From Acidobacteriota bacterium (GTDB lineage Bacteria; Acidobacteriota; Thermoanaerobaculia; UBA5066; Gp7-AA6), in assembly GCA_027307335.1 (NCBI GenBank), contig DAHUXD010000024.1, positions 1 to 64,000 of the forward strand: 64,000 bases of DNA, given 5' to 3'. A program made the translations under genes and the position numbers. A model generated the notes under the pieces. The model was not told the DNA's origin. It worked only from the letters and a program-made list of their open reading frames with translations, and did not search any database. Below are positions 6,482 to 40,291 of the stretch, piece after piece; the stretch's first letter is position 1; each line of letters starts with the position of its first letter.

Positions 6482-7630
6482 GTGGCCGTCGACCTCGTGA
6501 TCCCCGCGACGGACGTCGAGAGCCTGCGCGAGATCGCGGGCTGGGACGGCGTCCGACCGGCCACGTTCGCGGCGGCCGACTTTCCGGTCGACGTCGTGCG
6601 CCTCGCGGGCTCGTCCTCGCCGCCGATCGCGATCTCCCGCTGCCGGCGCGCCGAGACCCTCAGGGCGCTCCCCGCGAGCCTGCGGTCCCGGGCGGAGGCC
6701 GCGTTCGCCCGCGCCGCGAAGCGCCCGGCGGCGCTCGGTCTGGCGCACGGACGGTCGCTCGACCTGTCGCACGGTCCGGCCGTCATGGGGGTCATCAACG
6801 TGACCCCCGACTCGTTCTCGGATGGCGGCGCGCACCTCGACCGCGACCGGGCCTGTGCGGCGGCGCTCGCGATGCTGGAGGCCGGGGCGGCGATCGTGGA
6901 CGTCGGCGGCGAATCGACGCGCCCCTCCCACTACGGCGCGGCGCGGGAGGTGCCGGCGGACGAGGAGATCGCGCGCGTCGTGCCGGTGATCGCCGCGATC
7001 CGCGCCAGGACGGACGCGCCGATCTCGGTGGACACGCGCAAGGCATCCGTCGCCCGCGAGGCCCTGGCCGCGGGCGCCGATCTCGTCAACGACGTCTCCG
7101 CGCTGCGCTTCGACCCGGAAATGGCGGCCACGATCGCCGGCGCCGGCGCGGGGGCTATCCTCATGCACATGAAGGGCCTCGACCCGCGATCGATGCAGGA
7201 CGACGTGACGTACGCGCATCCGATCGCCGACGTCGCCGAGCACCTCGAGGAGGCGTCGGCGCGGGCGATCGCGGCGGGCGTGCCGGCGGGGTCGATCGCG
7301 GTCGACCCGGGCCTCGGCTTCGGCAAGAGCCCGGACGGCAACCTCCTGCTGCTGCGGCACCTCCGCGCGTTCGCCGCGCTCGGCCACCCCGTCGCGGTCG
7401 GCGCCTCCCGCAAGGGGTTCGTGCGGCGCTTCTCGGGCCTCGGCGAGGACGCGCCGGCGGCGGAGCGGCTGCCCGGCTCGCTCGCCGCGCTCGCGGCCGC
7501 GGCGGCGGGCGGCGCGGCGATCCTCCGCGTCCACGACGTGCCGGAGTCCGTCCGGTTCCTGCGCTTCTCCGGGGCCGTGGCACGGTCCGGGCCCCCCGTG
7601 GCGCGGCCGGCGGGAGCGGCGGCCCGCTGA
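6482..7630 (+). CDS. folP: Dihydropteroate synthase
   Basis: Condenses p-aminobenzoate with dihydropterin pyrophosphate in folate synthesis. The 382-residue protein has an N-terminal extension of about 98 residues before the TIM barrel, longer than the usual 270-290-residue enzyme; similar extensions occur in other DHPS. The signature MGVINVTPDSFSDGG is at 102-116, then VDVGGESTRPS, SVDTRKASVAREALAAGADLVNDVSAL, and the C-terminal GASRKGFV. It starts with GTG. Its stop overlaps the ATG of cdaA (TGATG), placing it at the head of the c-di-AMP operon. Confidence 0.93.
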   Translation: MAVDLVIPATDVESLREIAGWDGVRPATFAAADFPVDVVRLAGSSSPPIAISRCRRAETLRALPASLRSRAEAAFARAAKRPAALGLAHGRSLDLSHGPAVMGVINVTPDSFSDGGAHLDRDRACAAALAMLEAGAAIVDVGGESTRPSHYGAAREVPADEEIARVVPVIAAIRARTDAPISVDTRKASVAREALAAGADLVNDVSALRFDPEMAATIAGAGAGAILMHMKGLDPRSMQDDVTYAHPIADVAEHLEEASARAIAAGVPAGSIAVDPGLGFGKSPDGNLLLLRHLRAFAALGHPVAVGASRKGFVRRFSGLGEDAPAAERLPGSLAALAAAAAGGAAILRVHDVPESVRFLRFSGAVARSGPPVARPAGAAAR

Positions 7631-31815: not shown

Positions 31816-32190
31816 TTACGCGCGAGGGTTGAGCGAGAGTTTCGCGTTCAGGCGGCGCACCCGGTCCGACAGGACGCGCATCATGCGCATCGCGAACGCC
31901 GGCGAGCGCTGGACGAGATCCTGAAACTGCCGCTGATCGAGCGCGACGAGCTTGACGTCGGTCCTCGCGACGGCCGTCGCGGCGCGACGGTCGTTCTCGA
32001 TCACCGCCATCTCGCCGAAGAGGCCACCGGCGTGAATCGTGTCGACCAGGACGTCCTTGATGAGGATGTCGACTTCGCCCTCGACGAGCGAGTACATGCA
32101 GTCCGGCGGATCGTCGACGCGGAAGATGATCGTGCCCGCGGCGACGGATTTCGCCTCGCCCGGAAAGTCGAGAGACTGGATTGTGCGCAT
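31816..32190 (-). CDS. Single cyclic-nucleotide-binding (cNMP) domain protein
   Basis: A 124-residue protein consisting of one CRP-type beta-roll: AAGTIIFRVDDPPDCMYSLVEGEVDI, then the phosphate-binding-cassette region GGLFGEMAVIENDRRAATAVARTDVKL, then two helices. The usual R of GE(x)A/L...R(S/T)A is R92 in DRRAATA. There is no HTH or effector domain, so it probably acts by binding another protein. The earlier in-frame ATG would add 24 Arg-rich residues unlike the family. Confidence 0.85.
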   Translation of the reverse strand: MRTIQSLDFPGEAKSVAAGTIIFRVDDPPDCMYSLVEGEVDILIKDVLVDTIHAGGLFGEMAVIENDRRAATAVARTDVKLVALDQRQFQDLVQRSPAFAMRMMRVLSDRVRRLNAKLSLNPRA

Positions 32191-32288
32191 GACCGCTCGC
32201 CGCCGGTCGGAAATCGTACTGCAAAGGCACACACGACGTCGCCGATCTTGACGAAGTTCCATGGCTCCAGTAGGATGCCGCGCCTCGG

Positions 32289-32364
32289 GCCGATGTAGCT
32301 CAGTCGGTAGAGCAGCGGTTTCGTAAACCGCAGGTCACCGGTTCAAGTCCGGTCATCGGCTCCA
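32289..32364 (+). tRNA. tRNA-Thr (anticodon CGT)
   Basis: A full cloverleaf: acceptor stem GCCGATG/CATCGGC, D arm GCTC-AGTCGGTA-GAGC, anticodon arm GCGGT-TTCGTAA-ACCGC with CGT at 34-36, T arm ACCGG-TTCAAGT-CCGGT, discriminator T and encoded CCA. It reads ACG threonine codons. Its 3' half from loop position 32 to the discriminator is duplicated at 40250-40291, marking it as an integration target. Confidence 0.97.
32320..32361 (+). repeat. Left attachment site (attL) in tRNA-Thr
   Basis: These 42 bases, from the first base of the anticodon loop to the discriminator base, are identical to 40250-40291. Integrases of the tyrosine family commonly use tRNA 3' halves and restore the gene with the element's own copy. 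Confidence 0.92.
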
Positions 32365-32373
32365 ACAAATCAA

Positions 32374-32499
32374 TCACTTGCGGAAAGCCCTGACATCCCC
32401 TTCCTCGGCGTGTGGACTCAGTGTGGACTCGGCGTCGGGCTGCGGCACGCGCGCGAGCGTCTCGCGGATGCGCTCTTGGCTATCTGCTCTATCGATGCC
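32374..32499 (-). pseudogene. Integrase C-terminal remnant 1
   Basis: The minus-strand frame ending in TGA at 32374 reads ...ADSQERIRETLARVPQPDA then ESTLSPHAEEGDVRAFRK. The part from PQPDA onward closely matches a second remnant at 35516-35587 (PQPDAKSTLSP...RAAAK). It sits immediately beside attL and reads toward the tRNA, as tRNA-targeting integrase genes usually do. The catalytic domain is gone. Identification as integrase rests on position, orientation and tail character, not on catalytic motifs. Confidence 0.55.
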
Positions 32500-32652
32500 G
32501 CCGGTGTACCACTGGACGCGCCAATGCCTCGATTGTCGAACGTGACCACGTGACGCTTCTCCGCGAGACTAAGCGAACTCCACTCCGCCTGCGGTGATCG
32601 TCCGCGTTGGCACGTTCTTCCAATTGACCGTCTGGTCCTGCGATGTACTCAT
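32480..32652 (-). pseudogene. Alpha/beta-hydrolase gene, truncated and frameshifted
   Basis: AGGAGA followed by ATG at 32652 starts a frame MSTSQDQTVNWKNVPTRT...GGVEFA that stops at 32569. In another frame, starting at about 32570, the sequence continues SLAEKRHVVTFDNRGIGASS then GTPAASIEQIA, the unmistakable early core of an alpha/beta hydrolase. About 40-50 residues including the HG oxyanion region are missing between the two parts, and everything after is replaced by the integrase tail. It follows the quinone oxidoreductase gene by 57 bases, so it was probably the third gene of the TetR-controlled operon. Confidence 0.7.
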
Positions 32653-32709
32653 GTGGCTCTCCTGTCGCGGTGAACCTAACCCCAGTGTGTTCACCTGACC
32701 CGCCGCGTT

Positions 32710-33711
32710 TCACCTCAGCGAGACGACGACCTTGCCCCTTGCGCGTCCTGCTTCGACATACGCCATGGCCTCCTTGGTCGATGCGAAGGGGAAGACTCGA
32801 TCGACGACTGGGCGAATGGTTCCGTCATCGATGAGAGACGTGATCATGGTCAGCTGCTCGCCGTCCGCTCGCATGAAAAGAAACGAGTATTGAGCCTGGC
32901 GGCGCGCTGCTTTCGCTGAAATCCCGTAGCTCAGGACGCCCATGATCGTTCTCAAGACCCATGACGCGCCGATGCCTCGCGCAAAGGCAGCATCGGGCGG
33001 GCCGGAGATGGAAATGAGCTGTCCGCCGGGCTTGAGCACTCGCAGAGATCTCTCGAGCGTCGCCTTGTCCAGGCTATTCAACACGACGTCGTAGTCACGG
33101 AGGGCGTGTGCGAAATCCTCCTTCTTGTAGTCGATCACGATGTCTGCGCCGAGGCTTCTGACCAGATCCACGTTGGCCGTGCTGGTGGTCGTCGCCACCG
33201 TCGCGCCGACGTGCTTCGCCAGTTGAATTGCAAATGTGCCCACGCCACCCGAGCCCGCGTGGATGAGCACCCTTTGTCCCTTTTGGAGATGCGCTCTTTC
33301 GATCAGCGCTTGCCAGGCGGTCAAGCCGACCAGGGGGATCGCAGCCGCCTCTTCCATGGTGAGGGCTTTGGGCTTGACCGCCACGTCACACTCCTTGATC
33401 GCAATGAACTCGGCGAATGCACCGATTCGCCCGTCTGCCGGCCGCGCGTAGACTTCGTCGCCGGGCTTGAATCGGCGCACTCGAGGTCCGACCCGGGCCA
33501 CGATGCCGGCGACGTCGTGGCCCAAGATGAGCGGCAGGCCATACCGCAGAATAAGCTTGAACTCGCCGTTTCTGATTTTGGAATCCAGAAGGTTGACACC
33601 AGCGGCGTGGACTTGGACCAAGACCTCGTCATCGCGCAGCTCCGGAGTCGGCATGTCTGCCAACCGCAACCCGCTCATCTTTCCATAGCGATCGAGGACG
33701 AATGCTTTCAT
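32710..33711 (-). CDS. NADP-dependent quinone-oxidoreductase-type MDR enzyme
   Basis: A 333-residue medium-chain dehydrogenase/reductase without the catalytic zinc site. VQVHAAGVNLLDSKIRNGEF and LILGHDVAGIVARVG form the N-terminal domain; the NADPH fold has AGSGGVGTFAIQLAKHVGA. It likely reduces quinones or enones with NADPH. Its ATG overlaps the SDR stop (ATGA), so the two genes form an operon. Third-position base use is less GC-biased than in chromosomal neighbours. Confidence 0.9.
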   Translation of the reverse strand: MKAFVLDRYGKMSGLRLADMPTPELRDDEVLVQVHAAGVNLLDSKIRNGEFKLILRYGLPLILGHDVAGIVARVGPRVRRFKPGDEVYARPADGRIGAFAEFIAIKECDVAVKPKALTMEEAAAIPLVGLTAWQALIERAHLQKGQRVLIHAGSGGVGTFAIQLAKHVGATVATTTSTANVDLVRSLGADIVIDYKKEDFAHALRDYDVVLNSLDKATLERSLRVLKPGGQLISISGPPDAAFARGIGASWVLRTIMGVLSYGISAKAARRQAQYSFLFMRADGEQLTMITSLIDDGTIRPVVDRVFPFASTKEAMAYVEAGRARGKVVVSLR

Positions 33712-34556
33712 GTTGTTTTCACTACCAGCATCGGGTCGAGCCGCAGATCTCTGCGAATCCCAGCATCCATCAGCCCAGCAGGCGCAAATCTGCGTAGGAA
33801 TCGCAGGCGGCTCGCGAGCCCGCCGGCTGTGTATCGGAGTTTCGGGCGAGCGGCACCAGCGGCTTTCAGCACGACGTCAGCCACGACGCCCGGCTGTTCT
33901 GCGGTTGCCATCACTTCCTTCACGCGCTGTTTCACGGCGGCGCGAACCTCGCGATACTCATCGAGCTTGGCGTCGGGTTCCAGGAAGTTAGCGTCGAACG
34001 GCGTCTTCACGTATGCGGGCTCGATGATCGACACGCGGATCCCCCTCGTGCGGAGCTCGTGGTCGAGCGATTCTGAGTAGCCTTCGATCGCGTGCTTGGT
34101 TGCGGCATAGAGGGCGCCGTACGGCATCGGCAGGAAGCCGAGCACGGAGCCGATGTTGATGATGCGACCGTTCCCTTGGCGCCGCATGTGGGGCACGACG
34201 GCACGCGTCATCCGGACCACTCCGAAGAAGTTCGTCTCGAAGATCGACCGTGCCTGGTCGAGGGAGCTTTCTTCCGCTCCCCCCGGGGCGACACCAAAAC
34301 CGGCGTTGTTCACGAGCAGGTCGATGCGTTCCTCCAGCCGCATCACTTCCTTGACGGCAGCTTCCACGGATTCGTCGCTCGTCACGTCGAGCGGCAGCAT
34401 CTCGAACGATCGCTGGCCTGCTTTGGCGCCGCGCCTGCTGGTGCCGTAGACCTTGTAACCAGCCGCCGCGAGCCTCTGCGCGGTGGCTTCGCCGATGCCT
34501 GACGACGCTCCGGTAACGAGCGCGACCTTGCTCCTCATTGCGACCTTGCTCTTCAT
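33708..34556 (-). CDS. Short-chain dehydrogenase/reductase (oxidoreductase of island operon)
   Basis: A 282-residue classical SDR: TGASSGIGEATAQRLAAAGYKVYGTSRRG for the cofactor (RR suggests NADP), NNAGFGV, catalytic Ser in NIGSVLGF and YAATK. The C-terminal LRRFAPAGLMDAGIRRDLRL extension is common in SDRs paired with TetR regulators. A duplicated start (MKSKVAMRSKVALVTG) may be a small in-frame duplication. It overlaps the downstream MDR gene. The TetR operator copy 51 bases upstream of the start should control it. Confidence 0.9.
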   Translation of the reverse strand: MKSKVAMRSKVALVTGASSGIGEATAQRLAAAGYKVYGTSRRGAKAGQRSFEMLPLDVTSDESVEAAVKEVMRLEERIDLLVNNAGFGVAPGGAEESSLDQARSIFETNFFGVVRMTRAVVPHMRRQGNGRIINIGSVLGFLPMPYGALYAATKHAIEGYSESLDHELRTRGIRVSIIEPAYVKTPFDANFLEPDAKLDEYREVRAAVKQRVKEVMATAEQPGVVADVVLKAAGAARPKLRYTAGGLASRLRFLRRFAPAGLMDAGIRRDLRLDPMLVVKTT

Positions 34557-34606
34557 AGTGTCCTTCCTTCCACGCCCTGCAGTTTCCCGGCCGGCTGAAC
34601 GCGAAG

Positions 34607-34622
34607 TATGATGATCATCATA
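34607..34622. promoter_or_regulatory. TetR operator, copy 1 (SDR promoter)
   Basis: TATGATGATCATCATA, a perfect 16-base palindrome, identical to the one at the start of the TetR gene (35259-35274). It lies between the TetR stop and the SDR start. Confidence 0.85.
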
Positions 34623-34662
34623 TTTAGATACGCACGGGTGGTCGGCACGGGTTCTTGTGAAA

Positions 34663-35259
34663 TCAGTCGCCGGTGTGGCTGAGCTGCTTCAGCGCCGCTT
34701 CGCGCAGCGCGTCCGAGAGGCGTCGGTCGTCGACCGCGCGCGCGAGCACGAGTGCGCCGACCATCGTTGCCACGTTGACGAGCGCGTGCTCGTGCGCGCC
34801 CGGCTGCCCCCAGTCTGGTGACTGACGGGCGACGAGGTCGATCATCTCCTTGATGCGACGCGTGGCGGCGTGCCGCACCTCGGGCGCCTGGCGCGGCATC
34901 TCCGAGCCGAGCGCCGCAACCGCGCAGCCGGTCTCCACGCCTTCCAGGTGCGCCGTCGAGAGGTAGGCACTGCCCAGCGCGTGCAGCGCCTGCTTCGGCG
35001 GCGCAGCCGCTGCGATGCGCGCCACCGCGGCGATGCCGTCGGCGCCGGCACGGTCGGCCGCCTCGGCGAGCATCGCCTCCCGCGAAGCGAAGTGGGCATA
35101 GAAGCCACCATGCGTCAGGCCGGCCTCCTTCATGATGTCGGCGACGCCGGTGCCACCGTAGCCGCTGCGCCGGATGGCGCGTGCGGCGGCCTCCACGATG
35201 CGATCGTGAGTGACGTCCTTTCGTCTGGAACTGTTTCGTTTTTTCGACGCAACTCGCAT
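34663..35259 (-). CDS. TetR-family transcriptional regulator
   Basis: A 198-residue repressor. The HTH is typical: THDRIVEAAARAIRRSGYGGTGVADIMKEAGLTHGGFYAHFASREAMLAEA, at about 17-67. The ligand domain is short with CAVAALGSEMPRQ. The in-frame open sequence extends 50 residues further upstream, but those residues are unlike TetR. The identical palindromes at its own start and before the downstream SDR operon indicate autoregulation and repression of the SDR/MDR genes, relieved by an electrophile or other unknown ligand. Confidence 0.92.
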   Translation of the reverse strand: MRVASKKRNSSRRKDVTHDRIVEAAARAIRRSGYGGTGVADIMKEAGLTHGGFYAHFASREAMLAEAADRAGADGIAAVARIAAAAPPKQALHALGSAYLSTAHLEGVETGCAVAALGSEMPRQAPEVRHAATRRIKEMIDLVARQSPDWGQPGAHEHALVNVATMVGALVLARAVDDRRLSDALREAALKQLSHTGD

Positions 35260-35274
35260 ATGATGATCATCATA
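35259..35274. promoter_or_regulatory. TetR operator, copy 2 (TetR promoter)
   Basis: TATGATGATCATCATA abuts and overlaps the first base of the TetR start codon. Bound repressor would cover the transcription or translation start directly; there is no room for a ribosome-binding site, so the transcript is probably leaderless. Confidence 0.85.
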
Positions 35275-35515
35275 CCATCTGCGGCGGCGGAACAAAAGCG
35301 TTGGCTGGAGCTCCGATTCCTTGTGATTAAACAGCCCCCAGCCGTTGGCGATGAGCCGGTCGGCGAGCGCGAGGTCGACGTCGTCGAGGCTCGCCGTCCG
35401 AAGCGTCAACGCATCGAGGATCTCCTCCTGGAAGTCCTGTCTCTTCTGACGCTAATCGGATATCGAGACCGACGGTCGCCCGCCCGGCCACCGCCCTTCC
35501 CTCCCGTGCCCGCAA

Positions 35516-35587
35516 CTACTTGGCGGCGGCCCTTGCCCTTCCCGAAGGCGCCGGTGGACTCAGCGTGGACTTAGCGTCGGGCTGCGG
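35516..35587 (-). pseudogene. Integrase C-terminal remnant 2
   Basis: The minus-strand frame reads PQPDAKSTLSPPAPSGRARA then AAK and TAG. At DNA level 35554-35588 matches 32412-32446 at 32 of 35 positions. The frame is cut off at the upstream side where the beta-propeller fragment begins. A second integrase scar inside the island suggests that the island grew by successive insertions. The 256 bases from 35260 to 35515 contain the TetR operator and an open but unrecognised minus-strand frame. Confidence 0.5.
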
Positions 35588-35590
35588 CGG

Positions 35591-35698
35591 CTGACAGAGA
35601 ACGGGTCCCTTCCTTTGTGGCTGTCGGACAGCCAGCGTCTCCTTTACAACAAAGACGGAGGGATCTGGATCATCGACCGTTCCCGCCTTCCGGGCTGA
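35591..35698 (+). pseudogene. C-terminal fragment of a WD40/TolB-like beta-propeller protein
   Basis: The frame LTENGSLPLWLSDSQRLLYN then KDGGIWIIDRSRLPG ends in TGA at 35696-35698. The pattern (P)xWLSDSxRLLYxxDGxIxxID is the PD40/TolB blade repeated in propeller proteins, often fused to Ser/Thr kinases in Acidobacteriota. Only one blade remains; the break coincides with the edge of integrase remnant 2. It meets the ADOP gene tail to tail. Confidence 0.6.
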
Positions 35699-38140
35699 CT
35701 AATTTCGCAAGGCGAGCAGCGGATCTCCGGCCATCGCTCGCCGCGCAGGGATGTAGCACGCGAGAAGGGCGACGAACACGAGCAGGAGAGTCGCGCCGGC
35801 CAGCGTGACAGGATCGGAGGGACTCACCCCGAAGAGGATGCTGGCGAGGGCACGCGGCACGACGAGCGCTGCTGCCAGGCCGACGAGCGCTCCGGGAAGG
35901 ATCAGCCTGAGGCCGTCACCGAGAACGAGTCGGAGGAGATCGCCGGGCTTCGCACCGATCGCGATGCGGATAGCTATTTCTCTCGCGCGCTGGGCGACGC
36001 CGTAGGCGAGCACTCCATACAGGCCGATCGATGCCAATAGGAGTGCCAGAACAGCGAAGGCACCGGCAAGTTTCGACATCAACCGCTCGGTTCCGAGCGA
36101 TTCGGCGGCAAACTCCGACTGCGTTTCTACGCTGACGATCGGCAAGTCTTTGTCGATCGCCTGCACTTCTCGGCGGATCGCGGCCGCGCCGGCCTTGGCA
36201 TCCATCGCCGTGCGCAGCGCGATCGTTATCTGGCCGAGTCTGTTGGCGGGGGTCTGCGTAATCGGGATGTACACCGCCGGACGGGAACTTTCGTCCCGGA
36301 GACTCAGCGATTTCACGTTTCGGGCCACGCCGACGATCTCGAATCCCTCTGCGATATCAGCTTCATCTCCGAAACGGAAGCGCTGGCCGAGAACGCCGGA
36401 ATGCGGAAAGTATGTGCGCGCGAACGCTTCGCTGACCACGGCGACTCGGGGTGCCGTGGGACCGTCCCCGGGTCCGAAGTCGCGCCCCTGGAGCACTGGC
36501 ACGCCCATGGTCTCGAAGAATCTGCTGGAGATTGGATAGCAGAAAGCCGTCGGGCCGTCGGGACGTGCTCCCGGGAATGAGATCTGCCTGGACCAGCGCC
36601 CGGCCAGAAAGCCGAAGCGCGAAAGGCTCGCGGAACGCACGCCCGGGATCCCTTGGAGCTGCTCCTGCAGGCGCGAATACAGATCCAGTTCCCTGGCCCC
36701 CTCATATCCCACGATCGTCGGGTAGGCTCGGACGAGAAGGACTCGATCCCGCTCGAACCCCGGGTCCACTCGAGTCAACTCGTAAAGAGTTCTCGCGAGC
36801 AGTCCCGCGGCGACGAGCAGGACCACGGACAGGGACACCTGGAACATCACGAGCGCTCTTCGAAGGCCGGTTGTCCGCCCGCCTCCGCCCTGCACGGAGG
36901 CGTCCTTGAGTACAGAGTTGAGGTCCGTCGTCGTGGCGCGCAGCGCCGGCGCTAGACCGAACAGGATTCCGACCGCGAGCGAGAGCGCGGCGGTGAACCC
37001 CATGACGCGCGCGTCGTGGTGAAGCTCGAGCGAAATTGAGGCGGGGCCGGTGCCGACGAGTTTCAGAAGCGCATCGCTGCCCCACGCCGCGAGCAGGAAT
37101 CCGAGCAGCCCGCCAGCGAGCGCGAGCATGACGCTCTCCGTGAGTAGCTGCCGGATCAGCCGGGACCGGGCCGCTCCGATCGCCAGCCGGAGTGCGATTT
37201 CCTTCCGCCTCGCCATCGACCTCGCCAGCATCAGGTTGGCGACGTTGGCGCATGCGATCAGGAGAACGGCCATGACGACCGCCATCAGAATGGCGAGCGG
37301 AACGGCAAACTCGTCCCGAAGATCGGAAAGACCTCTCGCTCCCGGGACGAGCACGATACGGGACGCGTCGCGTGCCTGCCCGTTCGACGAGGTCGCATCG
37401 AATTGGGGCGCCCTGACGTCGGATGCCCGATAGATTGCGTCAAGCTCATCTCGCGCAGACTCCTGACTGATCCCTGGTCTCAGCCTTCCCATGATTCCCA
37501 CCGAGACGTGGTCGTTGAGACGGAGCCGGGCCCAATGAGCCATGGGCATCCAAAGATCCGGAGCGTCGCCGGGCTCGATTCCGAGAAATCCCTCGGGAGC
37601 GACTCCGATAATCGTGAATGGGATGCCCTTGAGCACGATCGTTCGGCCCAGAACGGAGTCGAGAGCGAAGCGGCGTCTCCAGTAGCTGTAGCTGATGACG
37701 GCGGCAGGAGGACTTCCGGATCGGTCGTCATCGGGCACGAGGGTTCGCCCGCTGGAGGGTCGGATACCGAGGAGTTCGAAGAAATTTCCAGAGACGCACT
37801 GTCCCCAGAGGACCTCCGGCTGTCCGTCGACGCCAGCGCTCAGACGGGTCGTGTCGAACGCCAAGACGCCTGACAGGGATTTGTTGTTATCGCGGATTTG
37901 CTCGAAGAGCGTCTTCGGAAAGCCGTCATCCGTTCCCGTTCTCGAGACCGCTTCGAGAAAAAAGAGCTGCTTGGGGCTCCTCACGGGAAGTGTCCTCAAG
38001 ATGACGGCGTCGACGAGACTGAAAATCGCGGTGTTGGCCCCAATGCCCAGCGCCAGCGTGAGAATCACGGCGATCATGAATCCGGGGCTCCTGCGGAGGG
38101 TGCGCAGCGCAAGCTGAGTATCTCGTGCGAGGATCTCCAT
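35699..38140 (-). CDS. ADOP-type orphan ABC permease (MacB/FtsX family)
   Basis: An 813-residue protein with the duplicated layout of acidobacterial orphan permeases. It opens with DTQLALRTLRRSPGFMIAVILTLALGIGANTAIFSLVDAVILRTLP; then come a MacB-type periplasmic core (about 50-245), an FtsX domain with three helices (about 280-420), a second periplasmic core (about 435-670) and a second FtsX domain (about 690-805) ending PARRAMAGDPLLALRN. No ATPase gene is adjacent. Its substrate is unknown; relatives are extremely numerous in Acidobacteriota, which supports the taxonomic guess. It lies in the island. Confidence 0.93.
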   Translation of the reverse strand: MEILARDTQLALRTLRRSPGFMIAVILTLALGIGANTAIFSLVDAVILRTLPVRSPKQLFFLEAVSRTGTDDGFPKTLFEQIRDNNKSLSGVLAFDTTRLSAGVDGQPEVLWGQCVSGNFFELLGIRPSSGRTLVPDDDRSGSPPAAVISYSYWRRRFALDSVLGRTIVLKGIPFTIIGVAPEGFLGIEPGDAPDLWMPMAHWARLRLNDHVSVGIMGRLRPGISQESARDELDAIYRASDVRAPQFDATSSNGQARDASRIVLVPGARGLSDLRDEFAVPLAILMAVVMAVLLIACANVANLMLARSMARRKEIALRLAIGAARSRLIRQLLTESVMLALAGGLLGFLLAAWGSDALLKLVGTGPASISLELHHDARVMGFTAALSLAVGILFGLAPALRATTTDLNSVLKDASVQGGGGRTTGLRRALVMFQVSLSVVLLVAAGLLARTLYELTRVDPGFERDRVLLVRAYPTIVGYEGARELDLYSRLQEQLQGIPGVRSASLSRFGFLAGRWSRQISFPGARPDGPTAFCYPISSRFFETMGVPVLQGRDFGPGDGPTAPRVAVVSEAFARTYFPHSGVLGQRFRFGDEADIAEGFEIVGVARNVKSLSLRDESSRPAVYIPITQTPANRLGQITIALRTAMDAKAGAAAIRREVQAIDKDLPIVSVETQSEFAAESLGTERLMSKLAGAFAVLALLLASIGLYGVLAYGVAQRAREIAIRIAIGAKPGDLLRLVLGDGLRLILPGALVGLAAALVVPRALASILFGVSPSDPVTLAGATLLLVFVALLACYIPARRAMAGDPLLALRN

Positions 38141-38343
38141 CGGCCGGAGGAATCAGCGAGGATAGTGCCAGCTGTCAGATCAGCTAAGTCGCTGAGGAAG
38201 CGAGAGCGACGGGTTTCGAGGTTCCCGTGGGTTGTGCGCTTCCGGGAAGGGGCTGTCCGATTCTGAACGCCCGCCGGAATGGACGCCCGGACAGTGCGAC
38301 GCCTTCACCCCTCAGAGAACCACCTGGCGCTTTCGAGGGTCGC

Positions 38344-39141
38344 CTAGAGGGCGCGGAGCAGTTCCTCGGTGAGAGCCGAACAGGAGGCCCTGATCGTGTC
38401 CTCCGGCTCGAGTCCTGCCGCTGCGCGGGATGCGAGAATCGAGCCTGCCGCCGCCGGGCGTGCGAAAAGACCTTCGAGATGCTGCAGCGCCTCGGCGGTG
38501 ACGACTGTGGATCGCGAGTCCTGGCTGAGACGGCGCAGGCGCTGCGCGATGTTCTCCGTGGAAACGCCTCGAAGGAGCCTGAGGATGTCGAGGGCATCCT
38601 TGTCCTTGACTCGGCTGGGCTCCTCGATCCGCTCCGAAAGCTTGTGGAGCTTACTGACGAGCAGCGCGGCCGGACCGGCCACGAGGACCTCGAATCGCCG
38701 TCCACCCTCCTGGAACGAAGTGATCTCCCGGATTTCCTGGTCGACCAAGGCTCCCTCTAAGCCACGGGCCTTGCGGGCGGCGCGGTTACCATGAGGCCCG
38801 AGTCTCGCGCCACGCGTGCCTGCGGCGGCGATCGCCTCGGGAACCATCAGGTCGACCCGGGCATCATCCTTGACCCACTGCCCAGGTTGATCACCGAGCA
38901 CGAAGCCGGATGCCTGAAGCGCCTCCCCAATGATCGGGTGGTCGGCAAGACCAGCTGGGTCGATGATGACATCGGCGTCGGTGGTGAAGGGGGCGACGGC
39001 GATGTCGGCTTCCCCGGTTTGTAAGTAGATCGCCTGAGCGCCGACCAGCACTAACGATGAGCGGTGCGGGCCGAGAGCGTCGAGGGCGTCGAGCAGGACC
39101 TCCCGCGCCTTGACGTAGAGCGAGTCAGGCGCGCCAGGCAT
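38344..39141 (-). CDS. Nucleotidyltransferase-fold protein, AbiEii-like toxin candidate
   Basis: A 265-residue protein. LVLVGAQAIYLQTG...APFTTDADVII carries the G(G/A)xA and TxDxD motifs of the DNA polymerase beta-like nucleotidyltransferases, and RVKDKDALDILRLL matches the conserved Lys-Asp helix of the AbiEii/MenT group. The start overlaps the end of the HTH gene upstream by 17 bases. This order (regulator, then nucleotidyltransferase) resembles type IV AbiE systems, in which the toxin modifies tRNA or other targets. Assignment is by motifs and context. Confidence 0.75.
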   Translation of the reverse strand: MPGAPDSLYVKAREVLLDALDALGPHRSSLVLVGAQAIYLQTGEADIAVAPFTTDADVIIDPAGLADHPIIGEALQASGFVLGDQPGQWVKDDARVDLMVPEAIAAAGTRGARLGPHGNRAARKARGLEGALVDQEIREITSFQEGGRRFEVLVAGPAALLVSKLHKLSERIEEPSRVKDKDALDILRLLRGVSTENIAQRLRRLSQDSRSTVVTAEALQHLEGLFARPAAAGSILASRAAAGLEPEDTIRASCSALTEELLRAL

Positions 39142-40156
39142 CAGTGTTCTTCCTCATCCAGGCGATCAGTTCCTCGCCCTCGGAGGGTCCTCGTCCGGGG
39201 CTCGTCAGAAGATCCGCGGCGACCTGCGACAGGGCTGCATACCCGATGCCCTCATCGACCCAGCTCCTCGAAAAGACTACCGAATCGAGAGGACGGACCA
39301 GGGTCACGTTGCCGCCCGACTCAGCGGGACGCAGCGCGAGCGCCTTGGCAGCGGCCTCCGGGTCATCGACGTAGACGGCGGCCAGGCGGGGCGACGCTAC
39401 CGGCGCGCGACGCACCGCCGCCAGCGAGCCGGTGACCACCGCACGCACCTTGAGATCCCTCACCTTCGCTGGGAAAGAGGCGAGACCCCGAGGGTCGAGA
39501 AACATCGCGACCTCGTTCGACGAGAGAAAGCCGTAGTCCTGAATCCAGCGCTGGAGCAACCCGGCCCAGTCGACCTCACGGATCTCATCGCGCGGCCCGC
39601 GTTCGATCAGGGCTTCTCTCTCCAGCAGACTGACGACGCGTGAGGCCGACGCTGGCGCCGTCTGTGCGATGTCAGCGAGTCGGCGCACGCCGTAGGGCGG
39701 GCGAACGTCGCAGAGCGCCCGCACGACGCGGGCGGCTGCGGGGCCCTTTAATGATGCCAGCGGTCGCGGCTCCCGTCCGGGATCCTTCTGGGCTCCCTCC
39801 GCCTCCACAAAGATTCCCGGCCGGTCGGCCACGACGCGCATGTTGCCGGAGGCGTCCGCGTAGCTGGCGCCGGCCTCCTTCAGCAGCTGCCGGGTGCGCG
39901 GGCTCAGAAACTCCGCCGTGACGAGGGTGCCCTTTAAGTCCGGTCCGGATGCGATGCGGAGTGCCTGCACGTCCTTGGGCTCCAGCTTCCGTCGCCGCAG
40001 AACAGTGAGCTTTGCAGTCGTGCCGTCTGGTGCGCGAAGGCTCACCGTCGAGGCCATGGGCGGACCTTCGAGGCGCCAGGTCGGCGGAAGACGGTTGGCC
40101 ACGAGCCGTAGCGTCGTGCTAAGTTCACGTGTTCCAGAAATATCGCTGTTCCTCAT
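39125..40156 (-). CDS. Winged-helix protein, AbiEi-like antitoxin/regulator candidate
   Basis: A 343-residue protein. Residues about 10-120 look like a restriction-endonuclease-like fold (LVANRLPPTWRLE..., SGNMRVVADRPGIFVEAEG). A winged helix follows at about 135-190 (CDVRPPYGVRRLADIAQTAP, ASRVVSLLEREALIERGPR). The C-terminal domain resembles the AbiEi C-terminal region. The ATG at 40156 lies within an operator; a second ATG at 40057 has GAAGG upstream but would remove 33 residues with coding character. It overlaps the nucleotidyltransferase gene, suggesting a co-expressed antitoxin. Confidence 0.68.
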   Translation of the reverse strand: MRNSDISGTRELSTTLRLVANRLPPTWRLEGPPMASTVSLRAPDGTTAKLTVLRRRKLEPKDVQALRIASGPDLKGTLVTAEFLSPRTRQLLKEAGASYADASGNMRVVADRPGIFVEAEGAQKDPGREPRPLASLKGPAAARVVRALCDVRPPYGVRRLADIAQTAPASASRVVSLLEREALIERGPRDEIREVDWAGLLQRWIQDYGFLSSNEVAMFLDPRGLASFPAKVRDLKVRAVVTGSLAAVRRAPVASPRLAAVYVDDPEAAAKALALRPAESGGNVTLVRPLDSVVFSRSWVDEGIGYAALSQVAADLLTSPGRGPSEGEELIAWMRKNTDAWRA

Positions 40157-40185
40157 AACGCGGAACAGTCTAAATCATGGAACAC
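40129..40185. promoter_or_regulatory. Nested inverted repeats at the AbiEi-like promoter
   Basis: Four half-sites form two nested inverted repeats: outer GTGTTCCA (40129-40136) with TGGAACAC (40178-40185), inner TGTTCC (40147-40152) with GGAACA (40162-40167). The inner pair spans the start codon at 40156. Such an array is expected for an autoregulating HTH protein binding as two dimers. Confidence 0.7.
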
Positions 40186-40249
40186 TACGAGTCAACTCTG
40201 AGTACTCAGCTGTCGAGATGGCGGCCACCATCGCGTATCGACAATCTGC

Positions 40250-40291
40250 TTCGTAAACCGCAGGTCACCGGTTCAAGTCCGGTCATCGGCT
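40250..40291 (+). repeat. Right attachment site (attR), displaced tRNA-Thr 3' half
   Basis: Identical over 42 bases to 32320-32361. The 5' half of a tRNA is absent, so this is not a gene. After the repeat the sequence reads GAATCC rather than CCA, whereas the left copy is followed by CCA. Confidence 0.92.

Follow-up and report, generated by a model that had tools for sequence, protein, structure and literature searches.

Introduction

Does the interval between an intact tRNA-Thr(CGT) gene and a second copy of its 3' half represent an integrative element, and if so, what has become of the machinery that would have brought it there? The locus lies near the middle of the window, by which we mean the whole stretch of 64,000 nt analysed here. 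We argue below that the island is very probably what remains, 7.9 kb between attL and attR, of an integrative element that targeted a tRNA gene and has since lost its recombinase, and that its cargo has relatives on plasmids of soil bacteria.

A tRNA repeat bounds a low-GC interval

ARAGORN places only one tRNA in the window, tRNA-Thr(CGT), and a repeat search of the 31-42 kb region recovers a second, partial copy of it at a spacing of 7930 bp (Table 1). A sequence-only reading of this DNA had described the two copies as perfect 42-bp repeats running from the anticodon loop to the discriminator, and this is what we find: 42 of 42 bases are identical, and by the ARAGORN placement they are bases 32-73 of the tRNA, base 32 being the first of the anticodon loop and base 73 the discriminator. 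When the comparison is stretched to the CCA end, 43 of 45 bases match, the right copy having GAA where the tRNA reads CCA. Chance is excluded as the origin of the repeat, since a 28-base core allowing up to three mismatches has two matches, against 0.00 expected in shuffles. The resulting geometry is that of a complete tRNA at one end of the interval and its 3' half at the other, with both attachment-site copies, attL and attR, retained.

Table 1. Features of the tRNA-Thr(CGT) locus, in positions of the window
Feature	Position	Strand	Basis or remark
tRNA-Thr(CGT), intact	32289..32364	+	ARAGORN; bases 32-73 (32320-32361) are the left repeat (attL)
Candidate integrase C-terminal tail (SQERIRETLARVPQPDAESTLSPHAEEGDVRAFRK, then stop)	32377..32481	-	35-codon frame, stop codon ~10 bp from the tRNA
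Alpha/beta hydrolase pseudogene, truncated and frameshifted	32478..32660	-	Adjoins the imported TetR-SDR-ADH module
Zinc-binding alcohol dehydrogenase (ADH) / NAD(P)H quinone oxidoreductase family	32710..33711	-	70-72% aa to plasmid homologues
Short-chain dehydrogenase (SDR; PRK06179-type oxidoreductase)	33708..34556	-	75-77% aa to plasmid homologues
TetR-family regulator	34663..35250	-	Annotation and homologue searches
Second tail-like fragment (PQPDAKSTLSPPAPSGRARAAAK, then stop)	35522..35608	-	Direct-repeat search and peptide search
ADOP-family duplicated ABC permease (MacB/FtsX domains)	35699..38140	-	TIGR03434
Nucleotidyltransferase (NTP_transf_8), putative toxin of AbiE-like pair	38344..39141	-	PF12281
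HTH / AbiEi_2-like protein, putative antitoxin	39125..40156	-	17-nt overlap with nucleotidyltransferase gene
attR, right copy of tRNA bases 32-73	40250..40291	+	Without the 5' half and without CCA

The sequence between the repeats (32365-40249) has a GC content of 0.643 compared with 0.714 in the remainder of the window, which is nearly as low as that of the lowest-GC 7.9-kb stretch found anywhere in the window (0.641). The lower GC and the accessory type of the genes, both remarked on earlier, are thus upheld by measurement and by gene annotation. Every larger gene of the interval, encoding ADH, SDR, TetR, the ADOP permease (877 bits against TIGR03434, cut-off 622), the nucleotidyltransferase and the HTH/AbiEi_2-like protein, lies on the minus strand, and two remnants, the hydrolase pseudogene and a 35-codon frame, occupy the space between the tRNA and the ADH gene.

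The same tRNA is used repeatedly in the class

The anticodon loop and its stems are a classical site for tyrosine recombinases (PMC8371274). When the tRNA was used as a query against 41 genomes, two genomes of the class proved to have both a full tRNA-Thr(CGT) and a partial copy (bases 32-73) on one contig, 47 kb apart in G026 and 6 kb apart in G029. Read base by base, identity begins at tRNA base 31 in both of these and at base 32 in the window, and the inserts that the 3'-half repeat bounds there are unrelated to the island of the window. In G026, a 397-aa PF00589 protein is encoded 125 bp from the tRNA and points toward it. In G015, a partial copy stands alone on a contig without a full tRNA, with an integrase gene beside the fragment; lacking the full tRNA, that contig does not display the insert itself. 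These data document that integration at tRNA-Thr(CGT) has recurred in the class, with its boundary fixed at the anticodon loop. Four relatives (G001, G002, G004, and G006) have a tRNA-Thr(CGT) directly after smc and lack any additional partial copy of it.

This recurrence bears on a more prosaic origin, in which an ordinary duplication or rearrangement of the tRNA would have left the second fragment behind and the foreign genes would have been acquired independently. Partial tRNA duplications do occur, and the genomes compared include none of the same genus in which an empty site could be sought. However, the boundary at bases 31-32 recurs around unrelated inserts in the class, one of them with a tRNA-adjacent integrase, and the repeats mark the limits of the low-GC accessory interval, so that we regard such an origin as very improbable. 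The probability that the island is a vertically inherited segment is likewise low. Site-specific integration into the tRNA gene, as first proposed from the sequence, is instead supported by the geometry, the boundary recurrence in the class, the single-copy tRNAs beside smc in relatives, and the foreign cargo. The ancestral junction itself is not visible, because HlyD, encoded by the gene to the right of the island, has no close homologue in the order; searches of genome contigs with AbiEi-like and SMC queries found no close relatives.

Three observations concern the surroundings of this tRNA. The insert of G026 (C51 458455-505551, L006-L008) is 47 kb long, with the partial tRNA repeat and the 397-aa tyrosine recombinase beside the tRNA. 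That of G029 (C2 6415-12403, L009) is 6 kb long and includes a PIN-domain gene; no PF00589 protein was found in its interval, as in the island of the window. In the window, a gene for a cyclic-nucleotide-binding protein (31816-32262) lies between smc and the tRNA; the relatives examined lack it at this junction, and it may be a separate gain.

Probable loss of the integrase

No protein encoded on the contig matches PF00589, and the larger genes between the repeats are assigned to other families; the earlier claim that an intact integrase is absent therefore stands as regards PF00589 inside the interval. There are likewise no transfer genes among the annotated open reading frames of the interval. 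Next to the tRNA, and again at 35.5 kb, lie two short tail-like frames, SQERIRETLARVPQPDAESTLSPHAEEGDVRAFRK and PQPDAKSTLSPPAPSGRARAAAK, which are 52% alike over 29 aa (E 9e-4), and a 35-nt direct repeat of 91% identity (32412-32446 and 35554-35588) is found at the same two places. From their position and orientation, we conjecture that they may be the C-terminal tails of lost integrases. The integrase identity remains a conjecture because peptide and motif searches returned no integrase relative: below E 0.01, the 35-aa tail peptide found only the window's own two copies in 149 genomes of the class; the tail DNA motif had two further matches in 148 genomes, both due to chance on inspection; a shorter form of the motif had none in viral contigs; and the peptide had none in plasmids or in Pfam. 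The weak peptide matches proved to be unrelated frames. Beside the second fragment, a frame at 35600-35700 (WLSDSQRLLYNKDGGIWIID) resembles the end of a beta-propeller protein and has no Pfam match.

The two tails could also be read as traces of tandem accretion: two related elements would have integrated successively in one tRNA, each leaving one of the tails (32.4 and 35.5 kb), before deletions removed the att site between them together with the bodies of both integrases. Such a history would fit the two similar, like-oriented tail-like sequences on either side of the TetR-SDR-ADH module, and tandems of cis-mobilizable elements (CIMEs) built in this way have been described (PMC5704250). However, no tRNA-like sequence occurs near 35.5 kb, where the best ungapped inner match is 23/45, and the tails have no confirmed integrase relatives. 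We consider this a possible but rather unlikely history; it would be a more detailed version of the integrative-element reading and is compatible with it.

Whether the island could still move is a related question, since an integrase from elsewhere in the genome or from a visiting element might act on the two att sites in trans. The two sites share 42 identical bp, and elsewhere the genome encodes six PF00589 proteins; however, none of these is near the tRNA-Thr(CGT) site, and a genome search revealed no additional copy of the 42-bp sequence. Such mobility, although compatible with the integrative-element reading, thus appears unlikely.

The integrative-element reading can be put as a sequence of steps. 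A mobile element that carried its own version of the tRNA-Thr(CGT) 3' half would have entered the chromosomal gene at the anticodon loop or close to it through site-specific recombination. At the left, the incoming half would have made the tRNA complete again, and the resident 3' half would have been pushed aside and stayed at the right; the arrangement of tRNA sequence at the two ends is directly visible, and the crossover would have taken place within it. The integrase and any transfer genes would have been lost later, leaving the TetR-SDR-ADH-(hydrolase) module, which its homologues mark as horizontally acquired, together with the ADOP permease and the AbiEi-like/nucleotidyltransferase pair. 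Self-excision would probably be impossible, leaving the island dependent on a recombinase of matching specificity acting in trans, and the pair at the attR end may stabilise the island as a toxin-antitoxin module. We infer that the island is probably stranded, as had been suggested.

Among known systems, the island is best compared with a CIME, which is defined by the retention of attL and attR and the loss of integration and transfer genes (PMC5704250), and it would then be a well-preserved example of an element kind already known. Like a CIME, it keeps both att copies without an integrase; it differs in that no related intact ICE or IME was found for its site and that its own cis-mobilisation is only putative. 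It also resembles the anticodon-loop class of tRNA-integrated genomic islands, as cited in PMC8371274 from Williams 2002 and Campbell 2003, in that one end has a complete tRNA and the opposite end a 3' fragment starting in the anticodon loop, but it lacks an integrase gene between the ends, where only the tail-like candidate fragments are found.

Plasmid relatives of the TetR-SDR-ADH module

The DNA of the TetR-SDR-ADH stretch is collinear with a conjugative megaplasmid of Paraburkholderia hospita (72.3% over 87% of the 2.9-kb query), with protein identities of 73, 77, and 72% for TetR, SDR, and ADH, respectively, and it also matches plasmids of Rhodoferax and Variovorax, likewise at about 72% DNA identity, and of Rhizobium and Agrobacterium. 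The TetR protein has a match in 12 of 396 genomes of the phylum, this genome included, and relatives at 72-74% within the sampled phylum come from only one distant genus, in which SDR and ADH follow as well. Judged from these homologies, its occurrence on plasmids and in one distant genus of the phylum marks the module as a transferable unit. In Variovorax, a hydrolase gene lies downstream of the ADH gene, in the same place as the hydrolase remnant of the window, which is cut at the junction with the tail-like frame. The island thus resembles the rhizobial and burkholderial plasmid modules in gene types, in TetR-SDR-ADH order, and at 68-77% aa identity, whereas its hydrolase is truncated and it lies on a contig from another phylum. 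It offers a clear case of such a module passing from one phylum to another, and it retains traces of how the element decayed. On a Rhodoferax koreense plasmid (L066, 11124-13262), the SDR gene of the module is apparently interrupted by an IS3 transposase.

A probable toxin-antitoxin pair at the attR end

The AbiEi-like gene occurs in 21 of 396 genomes of the phylum, this one counted, and in no other sampled member of the order. The pair is kept with the same order and overlap in three of the genomes (G230, G334, and G153), and both proteins are also found together on Rhodococcus and Streptomyces plasmids; no homologue of the nucleotidyltransferase was found in phage records. The nucleotidyltransferases have in common a glycine, a D-x-D, and one further aspartate, which we take to be as expected for the nucleotidyltransferase fold, and PF12281 is the sole model above its cut-off for the protein in the island. 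Searches of PDB profiles returned nothing informative.

The two genes probably form a toxin-antitoxin pair. The likeness to AbiE and MenAT type IV toxin-antitoxin systems consists of an HTH/AbiEi_2-like gene that lies upstream of a nucleotidyltransferase gene and overlaps it, and of conserved acidic residues. The pair differs from them in that neither PF08843 (AbiEii) nor the PADLOC AbiE models match it and that the AbiEi-like protein scores 20.9 bits against PF09952, just under the cut-off of 21, and for these reasons the assignment to AbiE is not secure.

A related pair is carried by a 6.7-kb insert at the tmRNA gene of G230 (C40, L051, 539-7257), whose other limit is a 21-bp repeat of the tmRNA 3' end and which lies on a contig without a PF00589 protein; there, the pair adjoins the tmRNA gene. 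Because such a pair sits at the edge of both this insert and that of the window, it is tempting to speculate that it might be a recurrent stabiliser of integrase-less, att-bounded tRNA and tmRNA inserts, penalising loss of the insert where no integrase is present. We consider this quite improbable at present, two inserts being a lead rather than a pattern, and it raises the question of whether AbiE-like pairs hold integrase-less islands in place. The tmRNA insert of G230 also carries a TOTE primase-helicase and a degenerate third copy of the tmRNA end at 7085-7105.
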